The notes beneath the pieces are model-generated. The model did no database searches. It was not told the origin of the DNA and worked only from the letters and a program-made list of their open reading frames with translations. From the NCBI RefSeq assembly GCF_963678975.1, contig NC_089272.1:62136574-62200573 (forward strand): DNA of 64,000 nt. Reading direction: 5' to 3'. Positions 60-64,000 of this stretch are shown here, in pieces. The translations under genes were made by a program, and so were the position numbers. Within the stretch, counting starts at the first letter, position 1, and each line of letters opens with the position of its first letter. The DNA is from Dysidea avara (Eukaryota; Porifera; Demospongiae; Dictyoceratida; Dysideidae).

Positions 60-3000
60 GCCCATGTGAAGTGGTATTTGAAGGCATTCTGTGTTGGCAC
101 GGATGGCCAGCCAGCAAGACTGGTAGTGTTCGAGAATTCCAAACATGCCAGTAAGGGAAAACCTGTAATACGAGTCATACAGTTATCTGATGTTAAGAGC
201 ATATCATCCTCCAATATCAACAAACATCAGAAGAAGCTAATTGTTATTGTGGTCTGCAATGGAGATGACTTTCTGTTTCATGTCAAGTCAGAGGATGATC
301 ATGCAAAGTGGCTTGGATATTGTAATGTGTTGTATACCTTGCCAAACTATGTTATCCCTGAGATACCAAAACGTAACCTTATTTCAAGAGAATGTACCAA
401 CAAATACACCGATCCCTGCAAGTTTGGTGCTGGTAAGTACATAAATTATGCACAATTGAAAAGGGCCACATAAACTAATAATCTCTGCCCGCATTGCTGT
501 TTTCTGTATCAATGATAATTCCATTACTGGTAGAGTCATGGGAGTTATCAATTTAGTTTTTAATAATGAAAACTCACCTACCGTCATTGGTATATTGAGC
601 ATTGGTATAAATGAGAAATTATAAAAATCTATTTAATGTAGTCTTTTCTCTGAGCGGTATAGGCCTGAGGACAGAGAACTTAGAAACTAAAAACAGATAA
701 TATTGTGTTCAGTATAATGCACGACACCTCAATGGCCTGCTATAATAATATTGTTAGTGCATTAGTAGATCAATGGTGCTAGTACTGTATAGTAGCTAAA
801 CTATAAGTGTTTGCAGTGTAAGTAGCAGATTTTATCACAATTCCATTATTATAATAATTATCAGTGTGCTTGTGGGAGTATCAGATATCATAATATTTTT
901 ATGTATACCTGTAGGTATGTATGTAAGATGTTGAGAAAGCATTGTTTGCAGCAGAACATTGCATTAAGTTCAGTTATGATAGACTTATTATTCTTATAGT
1001 CCACATATTTGTCGTTTACTTGATCAATGAGGGAGTAGCATCCATCCTTGGTTTATCTGGACTCCACATCATCACCATTAAGGAGAGTGATCGCACCTTT
1101 AATGTCTATGCTTATCATACAGAGAAGCATCTTGTAGCTTGGGACCATGACAAGATACGACGATCTGGTTGCGTTGAATCGTTGGTGTTCATAGAGCCCG
1201 GAAGAAAGTGTCATGGAGGACCAGGACTATTGTTGATGTACTGCTCATCCCCTAGCAAACTTAGAAAATGTCTCCATAAGTAAGATTTCCCCAATTAAAT
1301 TGTTATTTATGTGTAACTAAAACTATTTGAATAATTGAGCATTGTGATATTCCCCTTTGTTTGTGTGTGGGATAGTGCTTCAGATGCACATTTTAAATTA
1401 AAACTTGTGGTTTGTGGAATGAGTATTTGTGTAAATTCCATGTATATAAGGCTTCATTCTTACCTTTTTTAGTTTTATTTGGAACAGTTCCACAGCTTTC
1501 ACATCAGCAGAGTCCGTGTCTGTTGATCCTGAAGTTAGTAGTCCCTATCTCACAAGTAGTGACAGTCGCCAGTTGGTCCATACTACATCAACTGTACCTC
1601 CGACAGCAAGTCAAGGCTGGTACATGCCACCATCTACAAAACCAAAGGGAATTCCTACCAGTTGTATCCATACAGACAAAATCACTCCTAGTATAGATAA
1701 TTCAGTGTGTTCTTCAAGCATCTCTCAACTGCATTCTCCTTCATGCAAAAAACTTTTTGCACCTAATCATGATAGTTTTAACAATCAAGCAGAATTTCGT
1801 TTACGATCTGAGGTGATATCAAAATCACAAATCAGTACATACAGACAGTCAGAGAGCTTTAGCAAACTAAAGAGTAAGAAACTGAACAGCAGAAGTCATG
1901 TCACTCAGCCACCTCAAAATGCTGGTGGTACAGACACACAGGAACCACCACCTCTTCCACCTAAGCCAAAGAAACTTTCTTCAACTGCTAGTGTGGCTCC
2001 ACCATCAATGACTGATAGAACTACTAGTTGCGACAATTCTTGCTCCTCTTTGACAAGTGTGTACCAACATACCAGCTGTTCTCAAAGTAAATTGCTTTCA
2101 AAGAGGTCAGTTTAGCTTTTGTTCCCTGATGCAGTACAGCTTTAATCCAGCGTCGCTCGAACAAGTTGCTCGCGATTAAATATCTTGCTAATTAAGGGGT
2201 GTAGCTACTATTTTCCTCACGAGTCTTCATCCCTCGAGTCTTAAGATGAAGATTCATGAGTGAAACAGCTGCCACGCTCCTTAATTAGCGAGTTATTTAA
2301 TGGCGAGCAATTTGCTCAAGCGACATTGGATTAAAGCTGTACCGTATGTTTTACTATTGCTTTATCTTGTTATAGCCCTCGTTCCCAATCCAGTGTCTCA
2401 CAGGCTAGTTTGAAGGAGTCAGTTGAAGAAAGGCTACTTCAGGAATGTGCAGTAATAATCACAAGAAAGCTTGATATTAGTAATATTCTATCCCATTTAT
2501 TGCAATGTGGTCTCCTAACACGCAAAGATCAACAGTTTTTACTTAACCAGATGCGTACCGATGATGACAAAGTGTACTACCTGCTGTATAATTTGCCACG
2601 TAAAGCTGATGGATGGTTTGATAGGTTTTTGGAGTGCCTACGTGATTCACAGGAGGGTACCGGGCACAAGGATATTGCTGATACTCTTGAGGCTAAATTA
2701 AAAGAGGCTAGACATCAAAGCACTTTGAACATCCCAGCAACTGTACCGATACCAGTTTCTAGTGACACAGATGAAGTATGTTTAAATTTACAGCACACTT
2801 TGTTATGCATTATCATTTTTACAGCCTTATCCTGTGTTTATTGAGTCTCAAAGTAACGATACTGTTGACATCGTGCAAGTGCTGTCATCAGATTCTGTTG
2901 AGTCTTTGATATCAAAAGCTCGTGACAAATTCAGTGAGTTAGATTTATTGGAATGTTAGTGATATTACTACAATGTGTGTTTCAGATATTAGCTCAACTG

Positions 3001-3104
3001 AAGCATTGAGAGTGGAATTAAAAGAATCTCCATTGCATCATGAGAAGTCTGTAGGAGAGTCACGTATCCACAGATATAGCTATATCGTTGTCCATAAGCT
3101 GTAA
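60..3104 (+). CDS. A1: DOK-like adaptor, PH-PTB-linker-CARD-C-terminal domain (5' partial)
   Basis: Exons 60-432, 1000-1279, 1473-2105, 2376-2775, 2825-2933 and 2986-3104 (stop TAA) join in frame with GT-AG introns; the first exon lies left of the window. Exon 60-432 gives a PH domain (AHVKWYLKAFC through the conserved EDDHAKW tryptophan). Exon 1000-1279 gives an IRS/DOK-type PTB domain with the pocket motifs KIRRSG and EPGRKCHGGPG. Exon 1473-2105 is a Ser/Thr/Pro-rich linker with EPPPLPPKPKK, a likely SH3 ligand. Exon 2376-2775 is a CARD (LDISNILSHL, LLTRKD, LPRKADGWFDRFLECL). The last two exons add about 75 residues ending RIHRYSYIVVHKL, possibly ubiquitin-like. In known families PH+PTB marks DOK/IRS docking proteins at receptor kinases, and CARDs polymerise in innate immune signalling; the combined role here is inferred. 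No frame break was found in the visible part. Confidence 0.9.
2132..2344. mobile_element. Small inverted-repeat transposon (MITE) in A1 intron
   Basis: The ends are inverted copies, GTACAGCTTTAATCC at the left and GGATTAAAGCTGTAC at the right, and the inner arms (GCTAATTAAGG against CCTTAATTAGCGAG) pair further. The equivalent intron of A2 (28073-28127) lacks it and is only 55 bases long, so the insertion postdates the duplication or was lost from the other copy. No transposase is present and the target duplication is not clear. Confidence 0.85.
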
Positions 3105-3676: not shown

Positions 3677-6600
3677 ATGGAGGAACTACAAATGAAAGTG
3701 CTTCAAATCTGTTCCCCAGCCATTAAGGACATGTTAGATATCAGCGCTATCGTGCCCCACCTGAATGCTAACAATCTACTGACGAAGGACAATGTTAAGA
3801 TGTTAACGAACATGTCGAAGACTCAACAAGAGAAAACTGAATACCTTGTTTATATACTACCAAGGAAGAATAATGGATGGTTTGAGAAGTTTCTTCAATG
3901 TTTAGAGCAATCAGCTGAAGTTGCTGGACATACAGAGTTAGTGAAGGAGCTAACAGTCACACTGGATGATATGAAACAGATAAACAATTCAAAACAAAGT
4001 ATAGCTGGAGAGTGTGCAGCAGCTAATGAAGTAGCTGTGCCATATGGGAGTGGCCGAGAAGAGGTAGGTACAACATGTATTACAAACATTAAGGCTTGGT
4101 GTTTGCATCACAACACATGCCATACAGAACTATTACTGTACAGCCATATAGCCTATGGGCATGACATAGTTTTCATGTAGATATTAGTAGCAGGTGGCTG
4201 CTGGCTGACAAGCAGTTACAATTTTCAAGGGTTGTACCTTGTATAGCATCTGTATAGTATGTATAGTAGCTGTATAGTATAGTATGTGAATGTTTAACTA
4301 CAGTACATACATACGTACACTATAACTGTTATTAGTTGCATGGTAAATTTTATTAATATTATAGTATACCCATACATAGTGGTCATACCTTAGTTGTGAT
4401 TAATTGGTTAAATAGATAACTAACCATCTGATTAACCTAGTGAACTAATTATAAACTCCAGTAGTCTTGAACTATGTGGTGTGTTGCTTGTTTGAGAGGG
4501 TCAGTGATAATGGAGCTATATTAATGGTGGTTGTCCTGTAGCTAAAGTTGAAATTATCACTAGTAGACATTTATCATCTTATATCACAACTTGTTTTTAC
4601 CAAAGCATACAGGTAGTTTCTACAAGAATGGTGACATCAAGTGCTCCTATAGAAAACAGTTTAGATCACTAATTTGACATCATCTTGTTGACACAAAATG
4701 TTTTATATGCTAAATTGGTGTAAACAAGAGAACACTGTTATTCAATACTTATGATCCCTATATGCCTTTAAAAATTCAGCACCATGCACGGGTGTCTAAG
4801 TCTAGTAATCGCATGCTGCATTAATGTGCATGAGTACTGCTGGAATAGTGCACTGTATAATGTATGTTGTGGTGGTTGTGTTACAGATATGATATGCTAT
4901 CTTCTGTGATTGGTTTAAGTAGTAGTTATCATGCCATCGGATGTTTGATATTAAAATGCTATGATATACTCGATTTTCTAATGAATGCTGGCTACATAGT
5001 GTAACTGTATAACTATTATTAATTATTATAAAGCTTGCCATACACCTATTTGTTTTACAGTGCACGAATAAGTATATTGTATTGTAAACATGGTTTTCCA
5101 GAATTCTAGTTTGGAATTCTATGCCAATTAGTTTTACATAATAGTGTTCTTGTGAGCAAAGTTGGTTCTGGCACAATATATGCTCTAAACCATCTACTTG
5201 GTTATCGTGGTTTGTCAGAATTGTAGAAATTGATTCTTGCATTTCGATTATAGAACATTGCTGTATTACTGGTGGATGGCATACAGGAGGAGGAACCAAT
5301 TTTGAAATAGTAACTGTTGATTGTAATGCTCATCCCAAGCAAACCTGTGACATGCTTACACTGCAATAGATAAGTTGTAGCACATGAACATGAAATCCGT
5401 TAGTAAGTTGAGTAATCATACCACTCAGAATTCGTTATCACTGCCCAAGCACAACTAATAAATGGCCCTTGCATATGCAAATCCTATTGGTGTAGATGCA
5501 TATAATTTTATTAAAAAGTGCTATGAAAGAACAATTTTGATGTTGTGCTACTTCTAAAAACCAGGTGTCCATGCAGCTAACTAACTCATCTGGAATTAAC
5601 CAACTATGTATTTTACTGATTTAGCCAATAGGTTTTTGGTTTTGCAATAGCTAATACATAATTAATTTACTGTAATTTTGGATTCTTCAATGACGCTGCT
5701 ATGGAAGCGCTTGTTAAACAAAATGCTTTTAACAACATATTACGCACATGAGTATCTTCTAAACTGTTTTATGTTTTGACTATCATGTTTTTCCACAAAT
5801 TCTCTTGACAAAGCCTCAAAGCTGCTCTTAATTTTTGTTTATGTACATAAGGGTCACGCCCCCTTTCCAACTCGAAGGGATAGACTATTCCTGGTAGTCT
5901 ACGATGCCTGCACTGTTCTTTTTCAGTTGTTAAACACTTGTAAAACTCAAAGGGAAAGTAATTCATAAAGTCTGAGGAGAGTCGCCACACACGTATTTCA
6001 GACTGCTGAAAAGAAACCACCTCAGAGCAAAAGTTTACCTGTGTGGTAGTTTAATACAGACTTCATTTTGCTTTTATTTCTTACGTGCAAGCTGCTTTTA
6101 CCATTAATTTGATGATTTTTTTCACATGGGTGCGTACAGACAAACATAGGTAGGTACGCACACATACACACACACACACTTTTCCAAAAACAATTTCAGT
6201 AAACCAGGTGAGCCCCCACAGCCGGCCTTCGGCCAGCTGTGGGGGCTCACCTGGTTTAAAAAGTGCAGCAATCATGAGATACTACATAATTATCATGATC
6301 TGCAGAGTTAGGTAAAGAAAGTATAATGGCATAAATTTTGGCTAAACAAGAAAAGTTGGGTAACAGTGGGTCTCTGGTCTACTGTATATGTCAACCGAAT
6401 AGCCCACAATGTTGCCAGAAACCAGCCTAGAATTGAGTATTAAAGGAGTAAGTATGAACATTAGAATTAGGAAACAAAAAACACCAGTGCAATAGTCGTG
6501 TTTCAGGTTTTTGTTTTTGGCTTTAGAACTTTATCATTATTTTTCTGTATTTAAAGTATAACTTCAATTTGTTAGACAGTCAGTCTAATATTTATACCAC

Positions 6601-14944: not shown

Positions 14945-15300
14945 TGTATAAACATATCTAATCCAAAACAGCCAAGCTGTAAAAAAAGAGTGCGCCCCCC
15001 AAAAAGGCTATGGTGAAAAAAGATGTGAAATCCAAGGAGGCGGCCAAGGAATGGCTGTGATGGTAGGTTAATGGTAAAAAATTTAATAACAACAATTCAA
15101 GTGAATTTTGGTGCCGCTTGGTCTTGGCACAAAATTCCCCTGAATCAATGTTGTTATTAAAAATTTCACCATTAACCTACCATCACAGCCATTTCTTGGC
15201 CGCCACCTTGGATTTCACATCTTTTTTCACCATAGCCTTTTTGGGGGCCGCACTCTTTTTTTACAGCTTGGCTGTTTTGGATTAGATTTCACTTCTTTTT
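14945..15300. mobile_element. Large palindrome of a composite element family
   Basis: CCAAAACAGCCAAGCTGTAA at about 14957 pairs with TTACAGCTTGGCTGTTTTGG at about 15279, and inner arms pair through GATGTGAAATCCAAGG, ATGGCTGTGATGGTAGGTTA and TTAATAACAACA. The hairpin is about 340 bases in all. The same palindrome recurs, diverged, at about 57385-57685. In both places a GTAGCTGAACTCTCTACA tandem array lies beside it, in opposite orientations, so palindrome and array belong to one mobile unit. Confidence 0.8.
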
Positions 15301-15354
15301 GTATTTGTATACCCCAAAATAGGCCGGCTTTGAGGTTTTTTTAACGTATCTTTG

Positions 15355-16215
15355 GTCACTATAGTTTGTAGCTGAATTCTCTACATGGTGGTTTCTTTGT
15401 AACTGAACTATCTACAAGGTGACTTCTTCTAGCTGATCTTTCTATAGGGTGATTTGTTTGTAACTGAACTCTCTACAAGAAAACTTCAAACTGATCTCTG
15501 AACAGGGTGAATTGTTTGTAGCTGAACTCTCTACAAGGTAACTTCTTCCAGCTGATGTCTCTACAAGGTCACTAGTTTGTAGCTGAACTCTCTACATGGT
15601 GGTTTCTTTGTAACTGAACTCCCTACAAGGTGACTTCTTCTAGCTGAACTCTCTACATGATGGTTTCTTTGTAGCTGAACTCTCTACAAGGTAACTTCTT
15701 CTAGCTGATCTCTCTACAGGGCAATTTGTTTGTAGCTGAACTCTCACATGATTGTTTCTTTGTAGCTGAACTCTCTACAAGGTGATTTCTTCTAGCTGAT
15801 CTTTCTACAGGGTGATTTGGTTGTAGCTGCACTCTCTACAAGGAAACTTCTTCTAGCTGATCTCTCTACAGGGAGATTTGTTTGTAGCTGAACTCTCTAC
15901 AGGTGATTTGTTTGCGGCTGAATTCTCTACATGATAGTTTCTTTGTAGCTGAACTCTCTACAAGGTAACTTCTTCTAGCTGATCTCTCTACAGAGCGATT
16001 TGTTTGTAGCTGAACTCTCTACATGGTGGTTTCTTTGTAGCTGAACTCTACAAGGTGATTTCTTCTAGCTGAACTATCTCTTTCCGTAGTTGAACTCCCT
16101 ACAAGGTAACTTCTTCTAGCTGATCTCTCTACAAGGTGAATAATTTGTAGCTGAACTCTCTACAGGGTGATTTGTTTGTAGCTGATCTCTATACAGGTTA
16201 CTTGTTTCTAACTGA
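15355..16215 (+). repeat. Tandem array, GTAGCTGAACTCTCTACA unit
   Basis: About 18-20 imperfect repeats of some 45 bases: TTGTAGCTGAACTCTCTACA followed by (A/T)GGTGRYTT and CTTCTAGCTGATCTCTCTAC. Units alternate between GAACTC and GATCTC forms, suggesting a higher-order unit of about 90 bases. The reverse complement of the same unit forms the array at 55085-57190. Confidence 0.9.
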
Positions 16216-16223
16216 TCTCTTCA

Positions 16224-16314
16224 CAGTGTTGGGAGTAACGCGTTACGTAATATTATTACATTTGTGGTAACTAAGTAATATAACGAAATACGCTATAAAA
16301 ACGAGTAATATAAC
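16224..16314 (+). mobile_element. hAT left-end fragment
   Basis: CAGTGTTGGGAGTAACGCGT and the following ATATTATTAC...GTAATATAACG stretch match the left end of the hAT element at 61864. The matching right end (CCCAACACTG) was not found here, so this is a truncated copy or one cut by the long-TIR element that follows directly. Confidence 0.75.
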
Positions 16315-25887: not shown

Positions 25888-28858
25888 ATGGCGGGGTGTC
25901 CAGTTGTCGCGATGTCACCTCGAGCTCGACCTGCAGTTCACGAAGGTGTGGTGTATGTGATTGACAAGCAAGACCAAGGGGTAAGTACTAGCTGCAGTAG
26001 TATCATTGTAGCTATTTAGTCATACAGCTATGGCAGAACTCTGATTTGAAGACAGTTTTTTTTTGTCACATGTTATAGGCCCATGTGAAGTGGTACTTGA
26101 AGGCATACTGTATTGGTGCAGATGGCCAGCCAGCAAGACTGGTAATGTTCGAGAATCCCAAACATGCCAACAAGGGAAAACCTGTAATACGAGTCATACA
26201 ATTCTCCAATGTGAAGAGCATATCATCATCTGACATCAACAAACATCATAAGAAGCTAATTGTTCTAGTTGTCTGTAATGAAGATGACTTTCTGTTCTAT
26301 GTTAAATCAGAGGACGACCATGCGAAGTGGTTTGGATATTGCAATGTGTTGTTTACAATGCCAATGTATGTCATCCCTGAGATACCAAAACGTAATCTGG
26401 TTTCAAGAGAATGTACCAACAAATACAGCGATCCCAGCAAGTTTGGTGCTGGTAGGTACATATTATTATAATTATCTTAATTTTAATCCCTGCCTGCATT
26501 GTTGATTTACTTACCGCATCAATGATTTTGATACCGTTACTAGTAAAGGAATGTGAATTACTGTATCAATTCTGTTTAAAAATTAAAGGAAAACTCTTGA
26601 GTCACCTACCCTCATGCATTGTTATTTTGAACATTGGTATACATGAGAAACAATAAAAAATATGGCCTTTTCTATGCAGATTTTTTTTCTGCGCAGTACA
26701 GGCAGTAAGTTGCAGATTCTGAAAATCACAATTCCATTATCAATGTACTTGTGGGAGTATGATACGGATTCGGTTTACATAATATATTGTATGTATGTAT
26801 GTAAGATGTTGCATATTGCATTGTACAATATTAGCAGAGCATTGTATTAAGTTCAGTTATGACAGACTTATTATTCTTATAGCCCACATATTTGTTGTTT
26901 ACTTGATCAATGAGGGAGTAGCATCCATCCTTGGTTTATCTGGACTCCACATCATCACTATTAAAGAGAGTGATCGCACCTTTAATGTCTATGCTTATCA
27001 TACAGAGAAGCATCTTGTAGCTTGGGACCATGACAAGATACGACGATCTGGTTGCATTGAATCATTAGTGTTCATAGAGCCTGGAAGAAAATGTCACGGA
27101 GGACCAGGACTATTGTTGATGTACTGCTCATCCCCTAGTAAACTTAGAGAATGTCTCCATAAGTAAGTCATGGCTATATAATCATTCATCTATTTGTAAC
27201 TTTGAAGCTCTTGGGTGGCCTAAACTGTTTTGAATGATTTGCTGACATTTGCATTGTGATATTCCCCTTTGTGTGGTTACATGTGTGTGGGATAGTGCTT
27301 TTCAGATACAAAGTGTTATTTAAAATTTATATTAAAACACTTGTGGTGTGTGAAATGTGCATTTGTGTAAGTTTTCTATACATTCCATGCACATAAGGCT
27401 TCATCTAATTATTACTTAATCTTTTTTCAGTTTTATTCATGCTGGCTGGAACAGTTCCACAACCTTCACATCAGCAGAGTCTGTGTCTGTTGATCCTGAT
27501 GTTAGTAGTACATATCTCACAAGTGGTGACAGTCGCCAATTGGTCCGTACTGATCAAACTGTACCTCCGACAGCAAGCCAAGGCTGGTACATGCCACCAT
27601 CTACAAAACCAAAGGGAATTCCTACCAGTTGTGTCCATACAGACAAAATCACTCCTAGTATAGATAATTCAGTGTGTTCTTCAAGCAACTCCCAGCCACC
27701 TTCTCCTTCATGTGAAAAACTTTCTGCACCTAATCATGATAGCTTTAGCAATCAAGCAGAATTTCGTTTACGATCTGAGGTGATATCAAAATCACAAATC
27801 ACTACATACAGACAGTCAGAGAGCTTTAGCAAACTAAAGAGTAAGAAACTGAATGGCAGAAGTCATGTCACTCAGCCATCTCAAAATGCTGGTGGTACAG
27901 AAACACAGGAACCACCACCTCTTCCACCAAAGCCAAAGAAATTTCCTTCAAGTGCTAGTGTGGCTCCACCATCAATGACTGATAGAACTACTAGTTATGA
28001 CAGTTCTTGCTCCTCCTTGACAAGTGTGTATGAACATACCAACTGCTCTCAAAGTAAATTGCTTCCAAACAGGTCAGTTTAGTTTTTATTTCCTGATGTG
28101 TTTTACTATTGCTTTATCTTGTTATAGCCCTCATTCCCAATCCAGTGGCTCACAGGCTAGTTTGAAGGAGTCAGTTGAAGAAAGACTACTTCAGGAATGT
28201 GCAGTAATAATTACAAGAAAGCTTGATATTAGTACTATTCTATCCCATTTATTGCAATGTGGTCTCCTAACACGCAAAGATCAACAGTTTTTACTTAACC
28301 AGATGCGTACCGATGATGACAAAGTGTACTACTTGCTGTATAATTTGCCACGCAAAGCTGATGGATGGTTTGACAGGTTTTTGGAGTGCCTACGTGATTC
28401 ACAGGAGGGTACTGGGCACAAAGATATTGCTGATACTCTTGAGGCTAAATTAAAAGAGGCTAGACATCAAAGCTCTTTGAATATCCCAACAACTGTACCG
28501 ATACCAGTTACTAGTGACACAGATGAAGTATGTTTAAATTCACAGCACACATTAATATGTATTTATCAATTTTACAGCCTTATCCTGTGTTTGTTGAGTC
28601 TCAAAGTAACGATACTGTTGACATTGTGCAAGTGCTGCCATCAGATTCTGTTGAGTCTTTGATATCTAAAGCTCGTGACAAATTCAGTGAGTTAGATTTA
28701 CAGTAAATGTTAGTGATATCACTACAATGTGTGTTTCAGATATTAGCTCAACTGAAGCATTGAGAGTGGAATTAAAAGAATCTCCATTGCATCTTGAGAA
28801 GTCTGTAGGAGAGTCACGTATCCACAGATATAGCTATATCGTTGTCCACAAGCTGTAA
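25888..28858 (+). CDS. A2: complete DOK-like PH-PTB-linker-CARD adaptor
   Basis: Seven exons (25888-25980, 26079-26451, 26883-27162, 27431-28072, 28128-28527, 28578-28686, 28740-28858) give 671 codons plus TAA, all GT-AG. The start is ATGGCGGGGTGTCC; exon 1 encodes MAGCPVVAMSPRARPAVHEG and VVYVIDKQDQG, the first PH strand. PH covers about residues 18-130, PTB about 156-250 (KIRRSGC and EPGRKCHGGPG retained), a Ser/Pro linker about 250-470 with EPPPLPPKPKK, CARD about 480-575, and a C-terminal possible ubiquitin-like segment about 597-671 (VFVESQSNDTVDIVQ... RYSYIVVHKL). Compared with A1 it has three extra linker residues (HAG). In its PH exon 20 of 124 codons are replaced, against 3 of 93 in the PTB exon. 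The role as a membrane/phosphotyrosine-to-CARD adaptor is inferred. Confidence 0.93.
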
Positions 28859-29428
28859 AATGCTGGTCATTTATGGCTTCCCATTATATTTAAATTGTCT
28901 TCTTTTGCTTACCATTTTAATTGCATAGCAGCTGATCTGTATCACTTTACAAGCTGTATATTTTGATTTTTCATCATCGTAACTAAATTATAAATCATTG
29001 TACATTATTTTTGTATTGTAATTGTAGCTATTAACTTATGGATTTTGTGTGGTTTGATGCCAGAATTTTAACACACTTTGTATAAACTTTGTTCACTACT
29101 GTAATTTACACTGTAGGTTTTAAGAAACGTGCAGCTAAACAATGTTTCGCCTCGCCAATTTGGCCTGACTTGTGCGGGCGGCGCTGAAACCTTATCCTAC
29201 GTAACTATAGACTCTATATGCGGTGGGAAATTACCTGGGAATTCGAAACCATATAAGGCACATGACGAGTAGGCAATACCGGAAGTCTTCTTGTCACACG
29301 TTATTCTCGTGTTTTCAGTGTAACCTGACATGCTTTTTCGAAAAGCAACTAGCTAGGCGTCTGTGAGTGACGTCTTGTGTATGCAGCTACTTCGTGCAGT
29401 TTCGTCTTGAAGGTAATCCGTGATCAAC

Positions 29429-32400
29429 ATGGAGGAACTACAAATGAAAGTGCTTCAAATCTGTTCCCCAGCCATTAAGGACATGCTAGATATCAGTGCT
29501 ATCGTGCCTCACCTGAATGCTAACAATCTACTGACGAAGGATAATGTTAAGATGTTAACGAACATGTCGAAGACTCAACAAGAGAAAACTGAATACCTTG
29601 TTTATATACTACCAAGGAAGAATAACGGATGGTTTGAGAAGTTTCTTCAGTGTTTAGAGCAGTCAGCTGAAGTTGCTGGACATACAGAGTTAGTGAAGGA
29701 GCTAACAGTCACACTGGATGATATGAAACAGATAAACAATTCAAAACAAAGTTTAGCTGGAGAGTGTGCAGCAGCTAATGAAGTAGCTATGCCACATGGG
29801 AGTGGCAGAGAAGAGGTACGTACAACATGTATTACAAACATTAAGGCTTGGTGTTTGCATCACAACACATACCATACAGAACTATTACTACAGCCATATA
29901 GCCTATGGGCATGACATAGTTTTCATGTAGATATTAGTAGCAGGTGGCTGCTGGCTGGCAAGCAGTTACAATTTTCAAGGGTTGTACCTTGTATAGTATG
30001 TATAGTAGCTGTATAGTATAGTATGTGAATTGTTAACTACGTAGCTACATCAATGTAGCTACAGTACATACGTACACTACAGCTGTTATTAGTTGCATGG
30101 TAAATATTATTACATAGTAGTCATACCTTAGTTGTGATTAATTGGTTAAATAGATAACTAACCATCTGATTAACCTAGTGAACTAAATTATAAACTCCAG
30201 TGGTCTTGAACTATGTGGTGTGTTGCTTGTTTGAGGGTCAGTGATAATGGAGCTATGTTAATGGTGGTTGTCCTGTAGCTAAAGTTGAAATTACCACTAG
30301 TAGACATTTATCACCTTATATCACAACTTATTTTTACCGAAGCATACAGGTAGTTTCTACAAAATTAGTGACATCATGTGCTCCTGTAGTAAACAGTTTA
30401 GATCACTATTGTGACATCATCTTGTTGACACAAAATGTTTTATATGCTAAATCGGCATAAACAAGAGTACAATGTCATTCAATACTTATGATCTCTTTAT
30501 GTCTTTAAAAATTTAGCACCGTGCAGGATATCTAAGTCTAGTAATCGCATGCTGCATTAATGTGCGTGCGTCCTGCTGGAATATGCACTGTATAATGTAT
30601 GTTGTGGTGGTTGTGTTACAGATGTGATATGCTATCTTCTGTGATTGTAGTACATGGTGGCTTAAGTAGTAGTCATCATGCCATTGGATGCTTGATATTA
30701 AAATGCTATGCTATTCTAGTTTGGAATTCTATGCCAATTAGTTTTACATAATAGTGTTCTTGTGAGCAAAGTTGGTTTTGGCACAATATATGCTCTAAAC
30801 CATCTACTTGGTTATTGTGGTTTGTCAGAATTGTAGGAATTGATTCTTGCATTTCGATTATAGAACATTGCTGTATTACTGGTGGACGACACACAGGAGG
30901 AAGAACCTTAATTTGAAATAGTAACTGGTGATTGTGTAATGCTCATCCAAAGCAAACCTGTGACATGCTTACACTGCAATAGATAAGTTGTACACACATT
31001 CTGAAGATTTGAGAAGAAATGTTGTGCCAGACCAAGGATGAGACCCAGTAATTCACTGTACTTTGTAACTTGTATATGTTTGCTATCATGGTGCTTATTG
31101 AATAATACACGCCAATTCTGAAAAGTGGGTCTGGACTGGACAACATAGCATAGATTACTTGTTTTATTTGATACAAACATATTTGGCTATAGTGCTATGC
31201 AAGTCTTTCTTTTGATTACACAGCTATTTGCTTCAGTGACGTGGTTGTTACAGGTGGTATTTACATAATAAAGCGCTAGAACAAACAGCTAGCACAAACA
31301 GCTCAACATGCATACCCCAGGACATGAAATCCGTTAGTAAGTTGAGTAATCATACCACTCAGAATTCGTTATCACCGCCCTTGTTGGTTGGAAACATAAA
31401 TAACAAATGGCCTTGCATATGCAAATCCTTTTGGTGTAGATACATATAATTTTTATCAAAAGTGCTATGAAAGAGAACAATTTTGATGTTGTGCTACTTC
31501 AGGTGCCCATGCAGCTAACTAACTCATCTGGAATTAACCAACTATGTAATTTATCAATAGGTTTTTGGTTTTGCTATAACTAGTACATAATTATTTTATT
31601 GTAATTTTGGATTCTTCAATGACGCTGCTATGGAAGCGCTTGTTAAACAAAACGCTTTTAGCAACATATTATGCACAGAAGTATCTTTTAAACTGTTTTA
31701 TATTTTGACTATCGTGTTTTTCCACAAATTCTCTTGACAAAGCCTCAAAGCTGCTCTTAACTTTCATTCACATACGTAGGGGTCATGCCCCCTTTCCAAC
31801 TCGAAGGGATAGGCTATTCCTGGTAGTCTACGATGCCTGCACTGTTCTTTTTCAGTTGTTAAATGCCTGTAAAACTCAAAGGGAAGGTAATTCATAAAGT
31901 CTGAGGAGAGTCGCCACACACGTATTTCAGACTGCTGAAAAGAAACCACCTCAGAGCAAAAGTTTACCTGTGTGGTAGTTTAATACAGACTTCATTTCAC
32001 TTTTATTTCTTACGTGCAAGCTGCTTTTACCATTTGATGATTTTTTCACATGGGTGCGTACAGACAAACATAGGTAGATACACTGTAGGTAGGTACACAC
32101 ACAAACACACACATACACACACACACACCCACACTTTTCCAAAAACAATTCCAGTAAACCAAGCAAGGGCGGCCCCAGGAATTTTGGTGACTGGTTTCCA
32201 AACTTTTGCTATACACTAATTTAAATCTAGGGGGTATGGGGGCAAGATTTTCCAGAAATTGTGTAATTTGAAACTGAATCTAGTAGCAATATTGACAGTT
32301 TAAAATAGAATTATGTTGGGTATAATGTAGGCTGCTTAATTGTGCTTTCTTCTGGTATAATATCAGGTGCAGACTAAAGAGTTAAGGGAAAGAGTAAATT

Positions 32401-33484
32401 TGACATTTGAAGCATACAACAGACATGGATGTTGTTCTGGGGGTCTTGTGGCATGCTCCCAGGAAGATTTTCAGATTTTAACACTCTGTTATTAGATTTT
32501 GGACTATTTTTTACTGTGTTAGCACAGGTAAATATACTAGCTAGCTAGCTACTTACAGTTCTTAAGAGAAATACAAAATGTGGCTGTTCTATTGGAGTGG
32601 TAGACTGCTCTATTAGAGTATTTCGATCTGAACTTTTGTACCATTACAAATCACTGTAAAATATGATTTTGATCACCTGAATACTCTTGACCAGTTTCTG
32701 GAAACCTCAGAAACCCCCCTAGATCCGCCCCTACCAGGTATGCACCCACAGCCGGCCTTTGGGGGCTTGCCTGGTTTAAAAAGTACAGTAATCATGAGAT
32801 ACGACATAATTATATCATGATCTGTAGAGTTAGGTAAAGAAAGCATAATGGTATAATTATGGCTAAACAAGAAAAGTTGGGTAACAATGGGTCCCTGTAT
32901 GCCAACCGAATAGCCCACAATGTTGCCAGAAACCAGCCATTAAACCTAGAATTGAATATCAAAGGAGCAAGTACGAACAGCGGAATTAGGAAACAAAAAC
33001 ACCAGTGAAGTAGTCAACTTCAGTGCACTGTTTGTACCTACCTATAGTAAAGATGGGTATATACTGAGCTATCTTTCATACTACGGTCAACTGCACTTTA
33101 TATCAAGCTTTGTACCCAAGCCTAAGGAAAAGTAGGTGAGGAGAAACAATGGCACTTCCTCTTCCCCAGAGGATGGCTCTTGCCCCTCCTATGTTCTGCA
33201 GCTAAACTATTGCTTAATTGTGGTCGATGTTGGCAGTTATCACCAACTGTAACATGTTTGTCAGATTTGTTTCAGGTTTTTGTTTTTGGCTTTAGAACTT
33301 TTCTGTATTTAAAGTATAGCTTCAATTAGTTAGACAGTCAGTTTAATACTTATACCACTTCATTCTTCATTTATTTTACAGATATACACCATATTAGTGG
33401 AATCACATGAAAGTGATCACACCATCACTGTTAAATCATCAGAATGTGTTAGTACATTATTGGATAGAATCCGTGAACAACAAA
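29429..33484 (+). CDS. B2: small CARD protein, downstream partner of A2
   Basis: Exon 29429-29815 (129 codons from ATGGAGGAACTAC, donor GTACGT) and exon 33382-33484 mirror B1 exactly in length and phase. The CARD differs from B1 at only a few tail residues (SLAGEC for SIAGEC, MPHGSGREEV for VPYGSGREEV). The second exon ends CAACAAA then GTAAAC, where B1 has CAACAAG. The region corresponding to the candidate last exon of B1 is gone, replaced by the element at 34383, so the 3' end of B2 must differ or the gene is damaged. It starts 571 bases after the A2 stop. Confidence 0.78.
32166..32732. mobile_element. Element with AGGGGCGG-type ends inserted into copy 2
   Basis: AGGGCGGCCCCAGGAATTTT at the left is mirrored by AACCCCCCTAGATCCGCCCC at the right. 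The left copy of the duplication (near 6203) lacks it and shows the empty site AAACCAGGTGAG. Flanks ACCAAGCA and ACCAGGTA may be a mutated 8-bp target duplication. It carries a CTCTATTAGAG motif at 32603-32620. Confidence 0.75.
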
Positions 33485-35025: not shown

Positions 35026-35300
35026 CATATAGTTTATGTGAATAGTATATTTGTACTGTAGCAATATTATGTGGTGTTCCATAGATATTGTTCATCCCAT
35101 CAAGATCAATGTGATGGCTGGAGCAAACAGACTGCATGTACGCCATAATAGGCATTAACAGTGACTGTCTCATTTACTACTAGAATACTATCATTTTTTG
35201 TACGTTTTTATATGGTACACTTTTTAGTATGAATATAATATGCAATATGTATATGCAATTCTACATTTTACATATAAGAGAATGTTTACTCATGTCTTTT

Positions 35301-36749: not shown

Positions 36750-37810
36750 TAGTTATTGTGTACTGTTCACTACAGTCTATATACAGTACTGGTGGTGTTG
36801 GTAGTGTATTAGCAGTGATCCTCACTAAGGGCTATGGTACTGGTGGTGTTGGTAGTGTATTAGCAGTGATCCTCACTAAGGGCTATGGTACTGGTGATGT
36901 TGGTAGTGTATTAGCAGTGATCCTCACTAAGGGCTATGGTACTGGTGATGTTGGTAGTGTATTAGCAGTGATCCTCACTAAGGGCTATGGTACTGGTGGT
37001 GTTGGTAGTGTATTAGCAGTGATCCTCACTAAGGGCTATGGTGCTGGTGGTGTTGGTAGTGTATTAGCAGTGATCCTCACTAAGGGCTATTGGACCAGTG
37101 TTAAGATTATTACCTCTAGCCATATTATGTGTAATTATTCTTGCAAGTAGAGGTAAGTGTTTGCTAGTTGCCTTTCAAGCTCATCACAAAGCAAGAAACA
37201 CTAAATATTTCACCATATAGCAGGTTATCAGCGAGTGACACAGCCATCATAAGTCTTCCAATGTCAGTACCATATTTTACTTACAGATTGCTTTTCACCA
37301 TTACACAGTGTATGGGGATAGCAGTTAATTGTTTGTCAGTTACGTTGCATGTATTTGTAAACGTCAGCAGAAATATGTACTGCATATGAACTCATACTGA
37401 TACACAGACAACTTTGGACCACACACAACCCCATCAGTGTTTACTGTGAAATGTGATTGGTAGTATTGTTGTTTTCTCAGTCCATTTCCAAGAATTTCTC
37501 TCTGACAGATACATGCTAACCATAAGAGCTACTAAGTATACTCATGTACCCATTGTGGGATGGATCTGATTGCTACAGTACAGTACTAGTTACCATGAGA
37601 GTTGAGTGAAAGCATTACAAGTGATATAGAAGCTAGAATAAATAATATATGTGGGTCTTTATTATCGTTTTCTAGTGGATCTCTGTTGACTGGAGCTAGT
37701 AATATATACTGTACTTGTAATGTGTTTCTAATCACCTTGTAACACAGAATTCTTTGCATGTTTACTTAGTTCTTTGTGTTATCACTGATTGTTGTTAATA
37801 AATAAAGGGG
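36750..37810 (+). pseudogene. Decayed copy of the fibrinogen-like gene
   Basis: The start (GTGTACTGTTCACTA, then GTTGGTAGTGTATTAGCAGTGATCCTCACTAAGG) matches 43812-43880, and the end (CATTGTGGGATGGATCTGATTGCTACAG... AGTGATATAGAAGCTAGAATA and GTTTCTAATCACCTTG) matches 44680-44890. Most of the middle, with both cysteine-rich blocks, is missing or unrecognisable. AATAAA near 37799 may be the old polyadenylation signal. The signal-peptide region is expanded into tandem repeats. Confidence 0.82.
36785..37090 (+). repeat. Six-unit, 51-bp in-frame minisatellite
   Basis: Exactly six 51-bp units keep one frame open (unit YGTGGVGSVLAVILTKG, with D or A variants). The unit derives from the segment that in the 43834 gene encodes the N-terminal hydrophobic stretch. 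Units are nearly identical, so the expansion is recent or homogenised. Confidence 0.95.
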
Positions 37811-42283: not shown

Positions 42284-43800
42284 ACTAGTAATTGAGCATG
42301 TATGACAAGAGAGGTGATCACAGAGTATCTGCACTTCACAAGTGCTTTCCTTGACTTTGTAATACAAATTACAGAATGTGGAATTATATCATTATTCTAT
42401 TGTGGTTGACTGGTTATAGGATGTGGTTTAGTTTGTACTCACATGTCCAGTCTTTGCAGGCTCTGTCACATTTAATTGTAAGCGGTACTAACAGGGGCTT
42501 CAGTAAATCATAAGGATGGAATAATGGGTTGTTGGGGTGTTGTGATATTACTATCCACAACAGACAGAGTGAAACAACATGGTCATATAGTACACGTTCT
42601 TAGCATCTTCTGCATGTAGTTGTGGGTAGAATCTACTCATAATGCGAACAGATTATTTTCGTGCCTGCATTTTGGAGATGTTCATGCTAAAAAAAACATA
42701 GCACTAACCCATTGTCATATTAGCTGACCCAAGGGAAAAACCAGTTAATTGAATGGAGTAAACTATATATAGCTATACTATCCACAAATGGGAGATGGAC
42801 CACCTCTTTACAAAGACCACACCTAGGTTGGCTCAAAAAAAACTAGGCACTTAAGGTTATCTCTTTAGTGAGACTCTATACTGTACAGTAGGAGACTGCA
42901 TGAGGACTTATCTAGTGTACTACAGTTCACTTGCATGGACAAAGCTCTGTACAACCACTACATTTTGTATGACACATTGTTGGTGCACTGTACATGTAAC
43001 ATGGTGTAATCTCATGATTTCAGTGAAGTGTAAACCAATTATGTGAGATGACACTGACCTCATTATGATGTCAAAAAGTATACCATAGATTACCTGGAAC
43101 CAACATAGTTGACATCAGCACTGCAATTAAACTGTCTTGTCCATAAGGTCATAAATTTCACCTTAGCTATGTTTGGGACCTGGTGATGTCATGATGTACG
43201 TATATGTGTTTAGGACCTAAGTAAATGCTTGACAGATTCATTGTTACATGTGGTCAGGTGATCTTTGTACAGAGATGGCCTTTGTAACCAGGTGGTCTTG
43301 AAGAGGTGACAACTAAATGAATAGCATGGAGTTTTAACCATTCACATTCTACACTCTTCATCCTCCATTTTCACTATTGCTTAGATGAGTGGAATCAGTA
43401 AACACATGTATGAATTTCATTTTCATATGAAGTCATTGTACCCTTTACCTGAACAAGGAGGGACTGTACTAATGTCTTGTCAAAAGTCACACTTTGGTAT
43501 ACAGATAAGGCTCAGTTCTGCACTGAAGTACTAGTAGCACTGTGCTTTAAAACACAACAAAAGTCCAAGCATGCATGTGCAAGGCACACACAAAGTGCTC
43601 AAATAGCTATCACCTTCAAATAACCTTTTAACTTATGTGTTAAAATTAATGTTGCTGAGCTAATAAGATATTCATAGTTTCTCTAACAAGTTCCCTATAC
43701 ATTAATTAAAAGTACAAAGTACAATTAGTATAGACTGGTGGGAAACGTGCAGTTGTATAATATAATTGAAGTGTCTTGTACTGTCAATACCACTTTATGC
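42284..43800. other. No recognisable gene
   Basis: AT-rich sequence upstream of the fibrinogen-like gene. No promoter element or upstream exon could be assigned. Confidence 0.4.
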
Positions 43801-43833
43801 TGCAGTTATAGTGTGTACTGTTCACTATTTGTG

Positions 43834-59200: not shown

Positions 59201-60214
59201 ACTGTACAACATATTTTGCCTTATATGGTCATTATACAGGCCTGTAGTTACACAGTATACACAAAGACCTATACAAGCTATTCATGTGTATAGTTTCAGA
59301 TATACATTTAGTTTATATTAAGGCACAACTCTGAACAAGACACTTAGCTATTCACAGGCTGGGGGAATGCAAAACACGAATGGTCTAATAGATAACAAAC
59401 TATGTGGCTATAGTAAGAAAATGCCGATATCAAGGAGGGTCTTAAATTCACTGTCAGCTACAATTCTGAGAGGCCATGCATTTAGGCCAAGCAAACTTAA
59501 TTACTTGTTTCTCATCCACAAAAATTCGGTTGCAGGAGGTCATTTTTCATTATTCATTAAATACTCCAAATCAAGCGAACTAGTACTTATGATTTAGTAC
59601 CGTTTATGAGGTACAACCGTGCTGTAAAATTATAGTCAGCCTTCTTAGCATCAAAATACGTGTGCAGGTGATCAAAAGCAGCAGAAATGAAATTAGAGGT
59701 GGGGTGTGGGCAGGGATGAGAAATAATTAATCAAGTTTGTCTGGCCTTAATTTGTGTCACACTGATGGATGCCGCCCATCATGTCATAGACAAAATTAAA
59801 TTTCAAACATTTATATGCATGTTGTACCTCTTCTCGGCCACTCCCACATGGCATAGCTACTTCATTAGCAGCTGCACACTCTCCAGCTATACTTTGTTTT
59901 GAATTGTTTATCTGTTTCATATCATCCAGTGTGACTGTTAGCTCCTTTACTAACTCTGTATGTCCAGCAACTTCAGCTGATTGCTCTAAACATTGAAGAA
60001 ACTTCTCAAACCATCCATTATTCTTCCTTGGTAGTATATAAACAAGGTATTCAGTTTTCTCTTGTTGAGTCTTCGACATGTTCATTAACATTTTAACATT
60101 ATCCTTCGTCAATAGATTGCTGGCATTCAGGTGAGGCACGACAGCACTGATATCCAGCATGTCCTTAATGGCTGGGGAACAGATTTGAAGTACCTTCTTT
60201 TGCAGTTCCTCCAT
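53277..60214 (-). CDS. B3: small CARD protein, downstream partner of A3
   Basis: Minus-strand exon 60214-59828 (129 codons from ATGGAGGAACTGC, donor GTACAA) and exon 53379-53277 (IYTIFVESHESDHTI... IREQL, donor GTAAGT) have the same lengths and phases as B1 and B2. The CARD exon differs from B1 at only about six of 129 residues. The intron is 6.4 kb because it has taken in the tandem array, palindrome and several transposons. The last exon is not identified. B3 starts 455 bases after the A3 stop on the same strand, keeping the A-B order in an inverted unit. Confidence 0.78.
53459..53482 (+). repeat. Poly-C run
   Basis: An uninterrupted run of more than 20 C. Similar runs are at 24730-24743 and 56521-56542. 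Confidence 0.95.
53483..54159. other. B3 intron, no recognisable element
   Basis: A 75-codon plus-strand frame (53562-53789) shows no family resemblance. Sequence near 54110-54170 (GACTGGGTCACATA) may be the end of another element. Confidence 0.35.
54160..55045 (+). repeat. Dispersed repeat family R, copy 2, with nested hAT-like element
   Basis: Second copy of the repeat at 48450-49025. At 54443-54737 it is interrupted by a small element with inverted ends GTAGTGCTAGGCAATATCAC and GTGATATCGCCCAGCTCTAC. Flanks CCAAACAG and CCCGACAG may be a mutated 8-bp target duplication, which suits a non-autonomous hAT. Confidence 0.75.
55085..57190 (-). repeat. Tandem array, reverse orientation, interrupted by insertions
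   Basis: Units TGTAGAGAGTTCAGCTACAA with ACAAGTCACCC occur at 55085-55245 and 56655-57190. They are the reverse complement of the 15355-16215 units. The array is split by 55246-56654, which holds ATTATGC-rich repeat sequence (with paired CTCTAATAGA motifs at 55450-55498), a MITE and a poly-C run. Confidence 0.85.
55882..56330. mobile_element. Pogo/Tigger-like MITE within the array
   Basis: TATACTGTAGACTCCGGTTA and, at the other end, TAACCAGAGTCTATGGTA are inverted copies, extended inward by TTAGGTGCACATGG against GCACATGTGCCTAA. Several GCGCATATG repeats inside. No transposase. Confidence 0.7.
57295..57690. mobile_element. Palindrome of the composite family, second copy
   Basis: GCAGCCAAGCTGTGAAAAAA pairs with TTTTTCACAGCTTGGCTG, and ATGACTGTGATGGTAGGTTA with TAACCTACCGTCACAGTCAT. 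It matches the palindrome at 14945-15300. The short GC-rich part AAAGCTGGCCTCAGGCTGGCTTT lies between palindrome and array, as CCGGCTTTGAGG does in the other copy. Confidence 0.8.
57691..58651. other. B3 intron, no recognisable element
   Basis: AT-rich sequence; short frames at 58053-58633 have no family resemblance. Confidence 0.4.
58652..59099. mobile_element. CAGGGGCGG element with 5-bp target duplication
   Basis: Begins CAGGGGCGGGTCCAGGAG and ends CCTGGATCCGCCATTG, flanked by ATTCA on both sides (58647-58651 and 59100-59104). A (GT)n-G(n) tract is near the right end. Non-autonomous. Confidence 0.8.
59100..59827. other. B3 intron, no recognisable element
   Basis: A 76-codon plus-strand frame at 59367-59597 has no recognisable domain. 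Otherwise AT-rich. Confidence 0.35.
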
Positions 60215-61076
60215 AATTGTCTCGCAGGACGGGCACTCGATTGCGTGCCTAAGTCGTCACGACCGACAAACTAAATTTGGAAATGCTACTACTCGTCTAC
60301 TACAGAACGACCAAAGTATATGACCGTATGAATCTGATTCTGTGATTCAAAGAAAAACGGCCTTTTTGAACTGGGACTCGTTTCGTCACGGCAAACCCAC
60401 AATCTCGTGGCGTGGTCAAATGGCGCCAACATGCATGGGGCGCACGCAAGTAACAGGGATTTCCCAGGAAAAGTCCCCGCAGAACTACATGCTGAGTAAT
60501 GCGTTATGCTAGCTACACCACTGATCATGATTGGAAAAGCTAGATTAAATCATTAAAGAATCTCACGATTTCATGTCATAAAAATGACAGCATAAAACAA
60601 AGGTAGCAAGCAGCATGAAGGAGAAGGAAAAGAAATAATTATGATGTGGGTACACAGTAGTTTCTGTTTCATGTATCTGTCAGCACACGGACAGTGATAT
60701 AGCTATATCTGAAGATTCTTGATTCTCTTACGGACTTCTCGTGACACAATGGGAAATCCATCATCTCTATCTTCAGTCTCTTGGAGGGACTGAAATCTAT
60801 TTACAGAAAAGTTGAAATATTTCAAGTCAACCAAACATAACTCACTAAATTGCTTGCGAATCCTGGCTATTAATGACTCCACCGTTTCTGAAGGAAGTAC
60901 TTGCAATATGCCCACAGTGTCACTGCATTGTGAGTCAATGAAGACAAGGAATGACTGTAGAAGGAGCAATGAAACACAATTAGTCAGTTTACACAGCACA
61001 GAAAAACATTTGTCTCACAAAAACTGTTTATATTATGCATCAGTAGTATTGACAGCTATAACTTGCCAAGGGTATA

Positions 61077-61320
61077 TGTGACCGAATTTTGGAAAATCAC
61101 CCATATGGGTGCATTTGACATCTAAAATATTTAATGATTAAATCACAAACTTTATAGTGCAAATCTGCTTGTTGATGGTTTTAAGCCATTCTCAATACTT
61201 TAAATTACAAGAAAATTCTTGAAATATTTTCAAAACTGTGCCCTGCTCTTATTAGCAACCCACTAAATGTAATTATTCCATGCTCACCCATATGGGTGAT
61301 TTTCCAAAATTCAGTCACAC
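61077..61320. mobile_element. MITE in the A3 intron, TIR with internal palindrome
   Basis: GTGACCGAATTTTGGAAAAT then CACCCATATGGGTG at the left, CACCCATATGGGTG then ATTTTCCAAAATTCAGTCAC at the right. Flanking TA dinucleotides fit a Tc1/mariner-type target. Outer TIR bases recall the element at 34383-35025. Confidence 0.82.
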
Positions 61321-61863
61321 ATAGCTAAGTATTAACATTATCGTCTGTATGTACCATTTTATCTCCTCTTTGCAATCTAACAGGTATCTACTCAGACTAC
61401 TCTTGGGTCATTGCTATAAAACTAAAAACTGTTTCTCTGGTTGTCACTCTCAAAATCATAATTATTTGAGATTAGGTATTACTATGTATTTACCACATGT
61501 GCAAATTAACAAATGGATTCACACACATCATGAGTCAATCTACAAAGTTAGGTTTGTAGACTTGGATGGGTGTGGAAGACCCCTTTTAGAAATCCTGTGA
61601 CCAGTATTATGAAGGAATACAAACATGCATACCTTGTCTGTGTCACTAGACACTTGCACCGGAACAGTCAAAAGACTATTGTCGTTCGGACCACTTTTAT
61701 CTTTAACCCCTTGTAATTTAGTTGCTTCAAGAGTCTTTGCAATGTCCTTGTGTCCAGTACCTTCCTCTGAGTCATGCAGACATTCTAAGAAACTCTCAAA
61801 CCATCCCTCAGCTTTTCTTGGTAGTTTGTAAAGTAGATACTGAACTTTGTCATGATCAGTCTG

Positions 61864-63340
61864 CAGTGTTGGGAGTAACGCGTTACTTGGGAGTAACGCG
61901 TTACTTATGTAACGCGTTACATAATATTATTACTTTTGTGGTAGCTAACAAAGTAATATAACGAAATACGCTATAAAAACAGGTAATATAATGCAAGTTA
62001 GGCCCCTATTCGTTGATTATTAGTTTCTCATCCACCGCCCGCATCCTTCTTAAGCTACCGCATGGTAAGCCATTATTTACTCTGTGCATGCTCAGAAGAA
62101 CATGTGATGCCAAACTCTTATAATTTTTTTGTTGATGAATGCTACAATGCGCTATATATCGCCAGGAGAACTGTTGTTTTCCTTAGCAAATTGCTGCAGT
62201 GCCAGTTGCAATCGTGTTCTATCGACTTCGCTTTCAGTTGTCTGTCGAAAAACAGTTGGCGATCACGAAAAGTAGATTCAGCTGGTGAAGGAAATGTTTG
62301 TAATTTGGACAAGGTCTGTACATCAGTGTGAAAATAATGGCATAATGGTAATACCCTCCCGCCCGCATCATAATAATTAGAAAGGCTGGATGAGAAACTA
62401 ATAATCACCAAATAGGGGCCTTACTTAACTTACAAATGATGGAGGTTAATAGCTTAACTGTGGTTAGCACAAAAAGAATCATGCACACCTCCAGCCAGTT
62501 ACGCACGTGATGCAGAAGGCGCCATTTGTTGGCCCGTGTGATCGAACTCAACTCGTCGTGCGTAAAAGTGCCCCACCACTCCCAATCCCGTTCTACGAAT
62601 TCCACCACATACTCCCTTACTCCTAATAAACAAGGAATAAGGTGAAAGGTCAGATCCTTCTCCACAGCACGGGCTATGGAACTCTCGTCCAGATAGGCTC
62701 GAGTTAGCTGCAGGGGCCAAAAATCCTACATCGAGCCATACAGATTACAACAAAGGCTCGAAAACGCAATAGCAGCTACGTGCTTGTCACCCACCTGCGC
62801 TGAGAGGGGATCACGTGCACCTGATCTCGTGATTAAATAACCTGACCACTTGCCAAAAATTATAGTTAATGGTGATACCACCAGCATCTACTAAATGTAA
62901 TTCGATGAATACTTAATACCACCAACAACCACAATACTAATAACACGTTACATAAGTAATATAGTTACTGTAACGAATCTAATATTACGTAATATTATTA
63001 CTACAAGTAACGAAGTTACTAGTCTCATTAGTAACGCCTAGCCACAACGAAGTAACGAGGCCTACTGAATGAAGCTTATTCACCAGCTTCTTACTTATAA
63101 CCAAGATTTGCATATTGTCCAACAGCGCAATCATGTCACGTGATAAGGTGGTAGTTTCACACGTGACAGCTTAAGGCTGTGGACACAAAGTAACATAATA
63201 TGTAATATTATTATAGTTACTTTATTTTATGGGTAATATGTAACTGTAACTAAATAGTTCAGTTGCAAGTAATATGTAATATGTAACTAGTTACTTTTAT
63301 AAAGTAACTTGCCCAATACAAAGTAACTTGCCCAACACTG
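61864..63340. mobile_element. hAT transposon inside the A3 CARD exon
   Basis: Starts CAGTGTTGGGAGTAACGCGT and ends AAGTAACTTGCCCAACACTG, with a perfect 8-bp target duplication TCAGTCTG (61856-61863 and 63341-63348). Subterminal GTAACGCGTTAC and GTAATATTATTAC repeats are typical of the family. No intact transposase frame is visible; about 440 bases of the interior are a nested element (61995-62431). Exact flanks suggest a young insertion. Confidence 0.93.
61995..62431. mobile_element. MITE nested in the hAT element
   Basis: AAGTTAGGCCCCTATT...GATTATTAGTTTCTCATCC at the left and GGATGAGAAACTAATAATC...AATAGGGGCCTTACTTAACTT at the right are inverted repeats of about 40 bp. No transposase. Confidence 0.8.
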
Positions 63341-64000
63341 TCAGTCTGAGACTTGTTGAGTAAGAACTGGTGGTCTTTTCGTGTAAGGAGATTGTGGGAA
63401 TAAAGTTGAGGTGTGATAGTATCAATGTCTAGTTTGCTGATAATTGTTTGAGCACACTCTTTTAACACATCACTTGCCTCCATCTTTTTCTTAGAAGCAG
63501 TCTGTGAATTACTAGTACTGGGCAGTGAATGACGGCTAGGAAGAGTTTATAATGGTAACACATTATAAACTCTTGCTGCTAGGATGAGGTAAAATACATG
63601 ACAATAATACACATACCTGTACTATTTCCACACACATTCATCACTGCATGTTGTCTACGTTATATCCTTACCTCTTTGGTGGTAATGGTTGGGTACGCTG
63701 ATAGACACTTGTCACAGAAGACTCTGAACTTGTAAAAGCAACTACTCTATCTTGTGGAGACAGGTTGGTGTTTAACGAGAATTTCTTTGGCTTGGGTGGA
63801 AGAGGCGGAGGTTCTTGTGAGTCTGTAGTTTCTGTGCCAGCAGCATCCTGAGTTTGCTGACTCAATTTCCTATTTTTTAGTTTGCTATAGCTTTCAGACT
63901 GCTTGAATGTACCGCCTTCTGATTTTGATATAACCTCAGATCGTAAACGAAATCCAGGTGTATTGTGTGAAGGTCTTCCGTACAAAAGTTCAGAACCATT

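Follow-up and report, generated by a model that had tools for sequence, protein, structure and literature searches.

The CARD is the self-assembling domain found in complexes of the inflammasome type. In animals, CARD assembly is usually described as being triggered by switches that depend on nucleotides, nucleic acids, or coiled coils. To our knowledge, the CARD proteins CARD9/CARMA, RAIDD, BCL10, and RIP2 do not carry PH-PTB domains, IRS proteins have neither a CARD nor a ubiquitin-like end, and FRS2/FRS3 have no CARD. The docking proteins DOK1-7, as drawn in Figure 2 of PMC7550416, likewise show no CARD and no ubiquitin-like end, and FRS2 is described as having a myristoylation site in place of the PH domain of DOK/IRS proteins (PMC7260276). 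Mammalian Dok-3 is reported to bind both Card9 and the phosphatase PP1 and to restrain Card9 (PMC7550416, PMC10383035). In the sponge Dysidea avara, NLRC receptors with a CARD-NACHT-LRR architecture have been described (PMC12909245), in a paper whose main text does not contain the word phosphotyrosine. Here, we describe genes of the same species, designated A, in a window of 64,000 nucleotides (contig C1:62136574-62200573 of an assembly of 551 Mb in 108 contigs), in which a PH-like domain, a DOK/IRS-type PTB, a proline motif, a CARD, and a ubiquitin-like end are predicted to be joined in one protein. An initial annotation of this window, made from the sequence alone, knew of no protein joining PH and PTB with a CARD, and no description of a PH-PTB-CARD architecture was found in open-licence PubMed Central papers among the matches listed.

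The complete copy, A2, is located on the forward strand and consists of seven exons with GT-AG borders, running from a start codon at 25888 to a stop at 28858; the spliced model has no internal stops and encodes 671 amino acids, in line with the initial annotation. Exon 1 (25888..25980) provides the start codon and the N-terminus of the PH-like domain, which continues in exon 2 (26079..26451). Exon 3 (26883..27162) encodes the PTB, which is of the IRS/DOK type and retains the two pocket arginines (WDHDKIRRSGCIESLVFIEPGR), exon 4 (27431..28072) a linker with the SH3-type proline motif PPPLPPKPKK and the sequence YMPP, exon 5 (28128..28527) the CARD, and exons 6 (28578..28686) and 7 (28740..28858) the two halves of the ubiquitin-like region, followed by the stop. 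The order of the PH-like domain and the PTB, the presence of two pocket arginines 15 residues apart, and a C-terminal region bearing prolines and tyrosines all resemble DOK1-7 and IRS; the CARD is shared with CARD9/CARMA, RAIDD, BCL10, and RIP2, as well as with the NLRC receptors of the same species. Dok-3 and Card9 also bring a PH-PTB adaptor together with a CARD protein, but as described they are two separate proteins acting in trans. In Pfam searches, the CARD of A2 scored above its cut-off (32.8 bits vs. 23.9, E 6.9e-8), and no match to kinase, death, NACHT, or LRR domains was detected in A2 at E values up to 1. A CARD fold is predicted above the Pfam cut-off in A1, A2, B1, B2, and the window copy C2, which are described below.

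A is assigned an IRS-type PTB with two pocket arginines. A 13-row PTB profile matched the PTB of IRS-1 at E 2e-8 to 4e-8, which supports the PTB named in the initial annotation. A three-row profile of the PH-PTB segment in the window aligned in tandem to 1qqg, the crystal structure of IRS-1 PH-PTB (E 1.8e-6), with PH and PTB in the right order, the PH share of this match being weak (8.8 bits). FRS2/FRS3, whose likeness to A lies in the IRS-type PTB, matched at E about 0.01, and in a Foldseek search with a predicted PTB model ranks 1-7 were occupied by DOK1/DOK5 PTB chains (E 1.5e-3 to 9.5e-3). The two arginines are those that we take to line the binding pocket. The Dok homology motif is given as WPxxxLRxxGxDxxxFxFExGR (PMC7550416), and WDHDKIRRSGCIESLVFIEPGR of A2 is identical to it at 6 of the 11 fixed places, which include the GR at the end and the first arginine; 3 further places are conservative. 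When all six frames of the window were scanned, the pattern W....[LIV]R..G........E.GR, derived from these fixed places, was present only in A1 and A2.

The proline motif PPPLPPKPKK occurs in the linkers of A2 and A3, and a proline motif is also found in A1; the SH3 class II motif PxxPx[KR] is present once in each of the linkers of A1, A2, and the paralogs L017 and L035. Of the SH2-type tyrosine motifs (YxN and YxxP), the linker of A2 has YMPP and no YxN, L035 has two YxN, and L017 has none. At the C-terminal end of the protein, the roughly 75 residues specified by exons 6 and 7 resemble ubiquitin-like folds. Matches to single ubiquitins and their variants reach E 0.04 at best, linear ubiquitin fusions score better because their repeats add up, and the best Pfam match, Rad60-SLD, is under its cut-off (E 0.017); we have moderate confidence that the C-terminus of A is ubiquitin-like.

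The three A genes of the initial annotation are an incomplete description of the window, which contains two further PH-PTB copies, one with a CARD (C2) and one relic (C1). A1 (60..3104, forward strand; exons 60-432, 1000-1279, 1473-2105, 2376-2775, 2825-2933, and 2986-3104) splices at borders equivalent to those of A2, with the same six downstream exons and no stops, and encodes 637 amino acids within the window; its first exon, which resembles that of A2, sits just left of the window. A3 (60678..64000, reverse strand) has its linker, a CARD in two pieces, and ubiquitin-like exons inside the window and its PH and PTB beyond it. The latter two match in pieces only, in different frames and with one stop, and A3 appears to be broken in PH, PTB, and CARD. 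Inside its CARD exon lies an element of 1477 bp (61864..63340, reverse strand) with CAGTGTTGGG at both ends and an 8-bp target duplication (CAGACTGA), which is presumably hAT-like. The diverged copy C2 (20295..22820, reverse strand) retains PH-like (22809-22450), PTB (22385-22098), and CARD (20630-20298) frames in the order seen in A, with the second pocket arginine kept and the first lost, and its linker-region frames are broken. Relic C1 (10437..11029, reverse strand) shows a weak PH-PTB (tblastn E 0.019 and 0.001) in broken frames, and no CARD was found.

A-type genes form a multi-copy family that extends beyond the window. The genome was queried with the PTB and CARD exons of A2, and with its PH exon by tblastn. 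The PTB exon gave 20 matches, or 19 loci once the two A3 pieces were joined, 15 of which are clustered within about 0.4 Mb of contig C1 (62.13-62.55 Mb), and the CARD exon gave 81. At 16 of the 19 PTB loci, a same-strand CARD lies no more than 5 kb downstream (two of these 16 are on contig C8, outside the cluster); at one locus the CARD is upstream, and at none is it on the opposite strand. An extra locus detected only by tblastn (L015) raises the count to 17 of 20, and PH, PTB, and CARD are all present in that order at 13 of the 20, the broken A3 among them. On contig C1, 14 of the 15 PTB loci have a downstream CARD, compared with a mean of 1.84 and a maximum of 8 in 20,000 random placements, a control that ignores the shared descent of tandem copies; because the PTB copies share descent, the placement of the CARD shows order and not independent origins. 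Two diverged copies outside the window, with PTBs 62% and 58% identical to that of A2, keep the intron phases 1-2-2-0 and clean splice borders, and a PH exon was found in both by tblastn (35% and 38% identical). One of them has an extra linker intron and a complete ubiquitin-like end, and both its IRS-PTB (22.7 vs. 22) and its CARD (26.7 vs. 23.9) pass Pfam. The PTB exon of the paralog L017/L033 also passes the IRS cut-off (26.8 vs. 22), and both pocket arginines are present in 9 of 13 aligned PTB rows, including A1 and A2.

Three loci have no CARD, namely 62491130 (broken), C7:5790930 (an open frame of 425 amino acids without a Pfam PH or IRS match), and C3:20313540. The last of these, L032 (C3:20312040-20315315), combines a PH-like exon and a PTB that keeps both arginines with a tail of roughly 390 amino acids containing six YxN motifs (shuffle mean 0.9, maximum 6 in 5000 shuffles), and no CARD match was found within 5 kb of it. 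L032 is likely a sponge docking protein and may plausibly picture the ancestor of the A family as a plain docking protein, the extent of its exon being approximate.

Several observations weigh against the domain assignment or its interpretation. The PH (20.1 bits vs. 25.1, E 9.4e-4) and IRS-PTB (20.0 vs. 22, E 7.2e-4) of A2 both score under their Pfam cut-offs, as do the PH (23.2 vs. 25.1, E 1e-4) and IRS-PTB of A1. The PH cut-off is passed by none of the copies tested (A1, A2, C2, and paralogs), Pfam detects a PH in neither diverged paralog model, and the PH-PTB of C2 yields no Pfam PH or PTB match. In the second diverged copy, both CARD and PTB are below the cut-off. The PTB model that ranked DOK1/DOK5 first is of middling confidence, with a predicted local distance difference test score (pLDDT) of 66, its best Foldseek E of 1.5e-3 being accompanied by a template modeling (TM) score of about 0.5 and a root-mean-square deviation of 6-7. 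One or both pocket arginines are missing from 4 of the 13 aligned PTB rows, and the copies 62265260 and 62279854, which were left out of that alignment, lack them as well. No protein of 369-1174 amino acids matched A among 8000 scored candidates in one search and 241 candidates in another; because none matched although B2 of D. avara is in the same database, A does not appear in the public annotation as a single protein of about its own length. In addition, the PH and PTB of mammalian Dok-3 are reported to contact the coiled coil of Card9 and not its CARD (PMC10383035).

Even so, the gene structure supports A as one gene joining a PH-like domain, a DOK/IRS-type PTB, a proline motif, and a CARD. 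That it represents two adjacent genes, one for PH-PTB docking and one for a CARD-ubiquitin-like product, which are neighbors but never spliced together, is highly improbable. The missing single protein record would fit such an arrangement, CARD-ubiquitin-like genes without a PTB do exist (B and L012, the latter at C1:62094399-62097173 with a CARD, a ubiquitin-like exon after it at 62097063, and no PTB found within its 9.9-kb locus), and Met codons are present upstream of the A2 CARD in the intron frame. However, in both A1 and A2 the CARD exon has its first Met at residue 59, inside the CARD, and A1 has no usable Met ahead of it, a stop being reached upstream in frame before any Met. Moreover, the phase-2 linker-CARD junction and its splice sites are conserved in A1, A2, A3, and the two diverged copies, in spite of the synonymous divergence between A2 and A3 given below, and the linker-CARD intron of A2 is 55 bp, a length that could hardly accommodate a promoter of its own. 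A decaying or neutral cluster, whose domain order would have no present function, is quite improbable too. It would explain why A3, relic C1, the 62491130 locus, and the PTB copy at 62127873 are broken and why the linker region of C2 is in broken frames, but A1 and A2 are under purifying selection relative to each other, the ratio of nonsynonymous to synonymous substitution rates (dN/dS) being 0.264 overall, with values of 0.058 for the PTB exon, 0.20 for the CARD, and 0.48 for the linker. The diverged copies are open with clean splice borders, and PTB-CARD loci are also found on a second contig.

Starting from the features directly observed (the structure of the gene, its domains, the purifying selection acting on A1 and A2, a multi-copy cluster, and a CARD-less relative), we somewhat favor the view of A as a docking protein of the DOK/IRS kind to which a CARD and a ubiquitin-like end have been added within one gene and which would act as a phosphotyrosine-gated CARD scaffold. 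Its domain content suggests a direct wire from receptor signaling to CARD assembly; each binding partner, the activating or restraining direction, and the biological setting are inferred. The PH-like domain would tether A at a phosphoinositide membrane, and the PTB would dock onto an activated receptor or kinase by way of an NPxY-type tail phosphorylated on tyrosine. The PxxPx[KR] motif of the linker, together with tyrosines in some copies, may recruit SH3/SH2 adaptors. Crowding at the membrane could then allow the CARD to nucleate a CARD assembly that takes in B, for example, or other proteins with a CARD, and the ubiquitin-like end might attract ubiquitin-pathway partners. A further possibility, which we put forward only tentatively, is that the sponge lineage evolved an expanded and diversifying set of CARD seeds that are tethered to the membrane and gated by phosphotyrosine. 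Each copy would read a different receptor tail via its PTB and launch CARD assembly in one molecule, as a one-protein counterpart of the vertebrate receptor, docking protein, and CARD adaptor. The main rival to the scaffold reading is that A acts as a brake, by analogy with Dok-3 and Card9, by holding CARD partners at the membrane or recruiting phosphatases, with its CARD serving as a decoy that caps filaments, which we regard as unlikely. The proline and tyrosine motifs of the linker would suit the recruitment of SH3/SH2 proteins in a brake, and Dok-3 is reported to keep Card9 inactive by recruiting PP1 (PMC7550416, PMC10383035), whereas a fused CARD, here under purifying selection (A1-A2 dN/dS 0.20), would be superfluous for a Dok-3-like mechanism.

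Each of the three A genes is followed by a gene designated B, which the initial annotation had placed within about 600 bases and described as CARD-only. The gaps between the A stop and the B start (572, 570, and 463 bases) agree with this distance, but B consists of a CARD, half a ubiquitin-like segment, and a tail of 24 amino acids. B2 (forward strand) has three exons, which encode the CARD (Pfam 8e-10) and a conserved GECAAANEV segment (29429..29815), the half ubiquitin-like segment, which resembles exon 6 of A2 (33382..33484), and the tail with the stop (35085..35158); its spliced product of 187 amino acids is identical letter for letter to an NCBI protein of Dysidea avara (P0001). B1 (forward strand) has its CARD exon at 3677..4063, exon 2 from 6617, and exon 3 from 8597, and the corresponding exons of B3 (reverse strand) are at 59828..60214, 53379-53281, and near 47324. 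In the AlphaFold (AF2) model of P0001, the CARD has a pLDDT of 82-93 across the first 100 residues, the remainder being mostly of low confidence, and the modeled CARD resembles CARD chains of Apaf-1 (TM by target 0.78-0.84; best E 5.1e-3, with no match at or below 0.001). GEC[AS]AANEV after the CARD is common to all 24 aligned B rows (P0001-P0024), and the post-CARD segment GEC[AS]AANEV...GREE is one of the best-conserved stretches of B in this alignment.

The repeated A-B pairing had been taken to suggest a dedicated module, which the present data do not support. Only three close B copies (B1, B2, and B3, 95-100% identical) exist in the genome, the next match being 43%, and they are located only beside A1, A2, and A3. 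A1B1 and A2B2 represent a single block that was duplicated (79-95% identity over the aligned DNA pieces), and 13 other PTB loci have a CARD without B. The pairing is not general in the family, and it provides no independent evidence of a module because B occurs only beside A1-A3 and two of the pairs are one duplicated block. In a CARD tree, B groups with two relatives (support 96/92). Exon 1 of B3 is 95% identical to that of B2, but in the flanks, upstream and in the intron, similarity does not exceed that of shuffled sequences, and B has therefore been homogenized or is unusually constrained; A2 and A3 are far more diverged (dS 0.67 for the linker, 1.2-2.8 for the CARD and second ubiquitin-like exon). 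Comparison of B3 exon 1 (59828-60214) with 3677-4063 and 29429-29815 points to exon-limited gene conversion or strong constraint.

At the level of the whole genome, a CARD profile run in six frames gave at least 127 exon-level matches (150 of 331 candidates scored), compared with the 39 CARD genes given for the published D. avara annotation (PMC12909245). Other parts of the window contain a single-exon, cysteine-rich open frame of 376 amino acids (43729-44856), a tandem repeat of about 51 bases within an open frame (36786-37090), and related repeat arrays on opposite strands (14954-16229 and 56649-57683).

If A is indeed a docking protein with a gained CARD, a receptor-proximal phosphotyrosine reader hard-wired to a CARD would represent another entry route to CARD assembly in an early-branching animal. 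A offers a fused form of the link that is made in trans by mammalian Dok-3 and Card9, and since a CARD-less relative is present in the same genome, the origin of this fusion can be studied.

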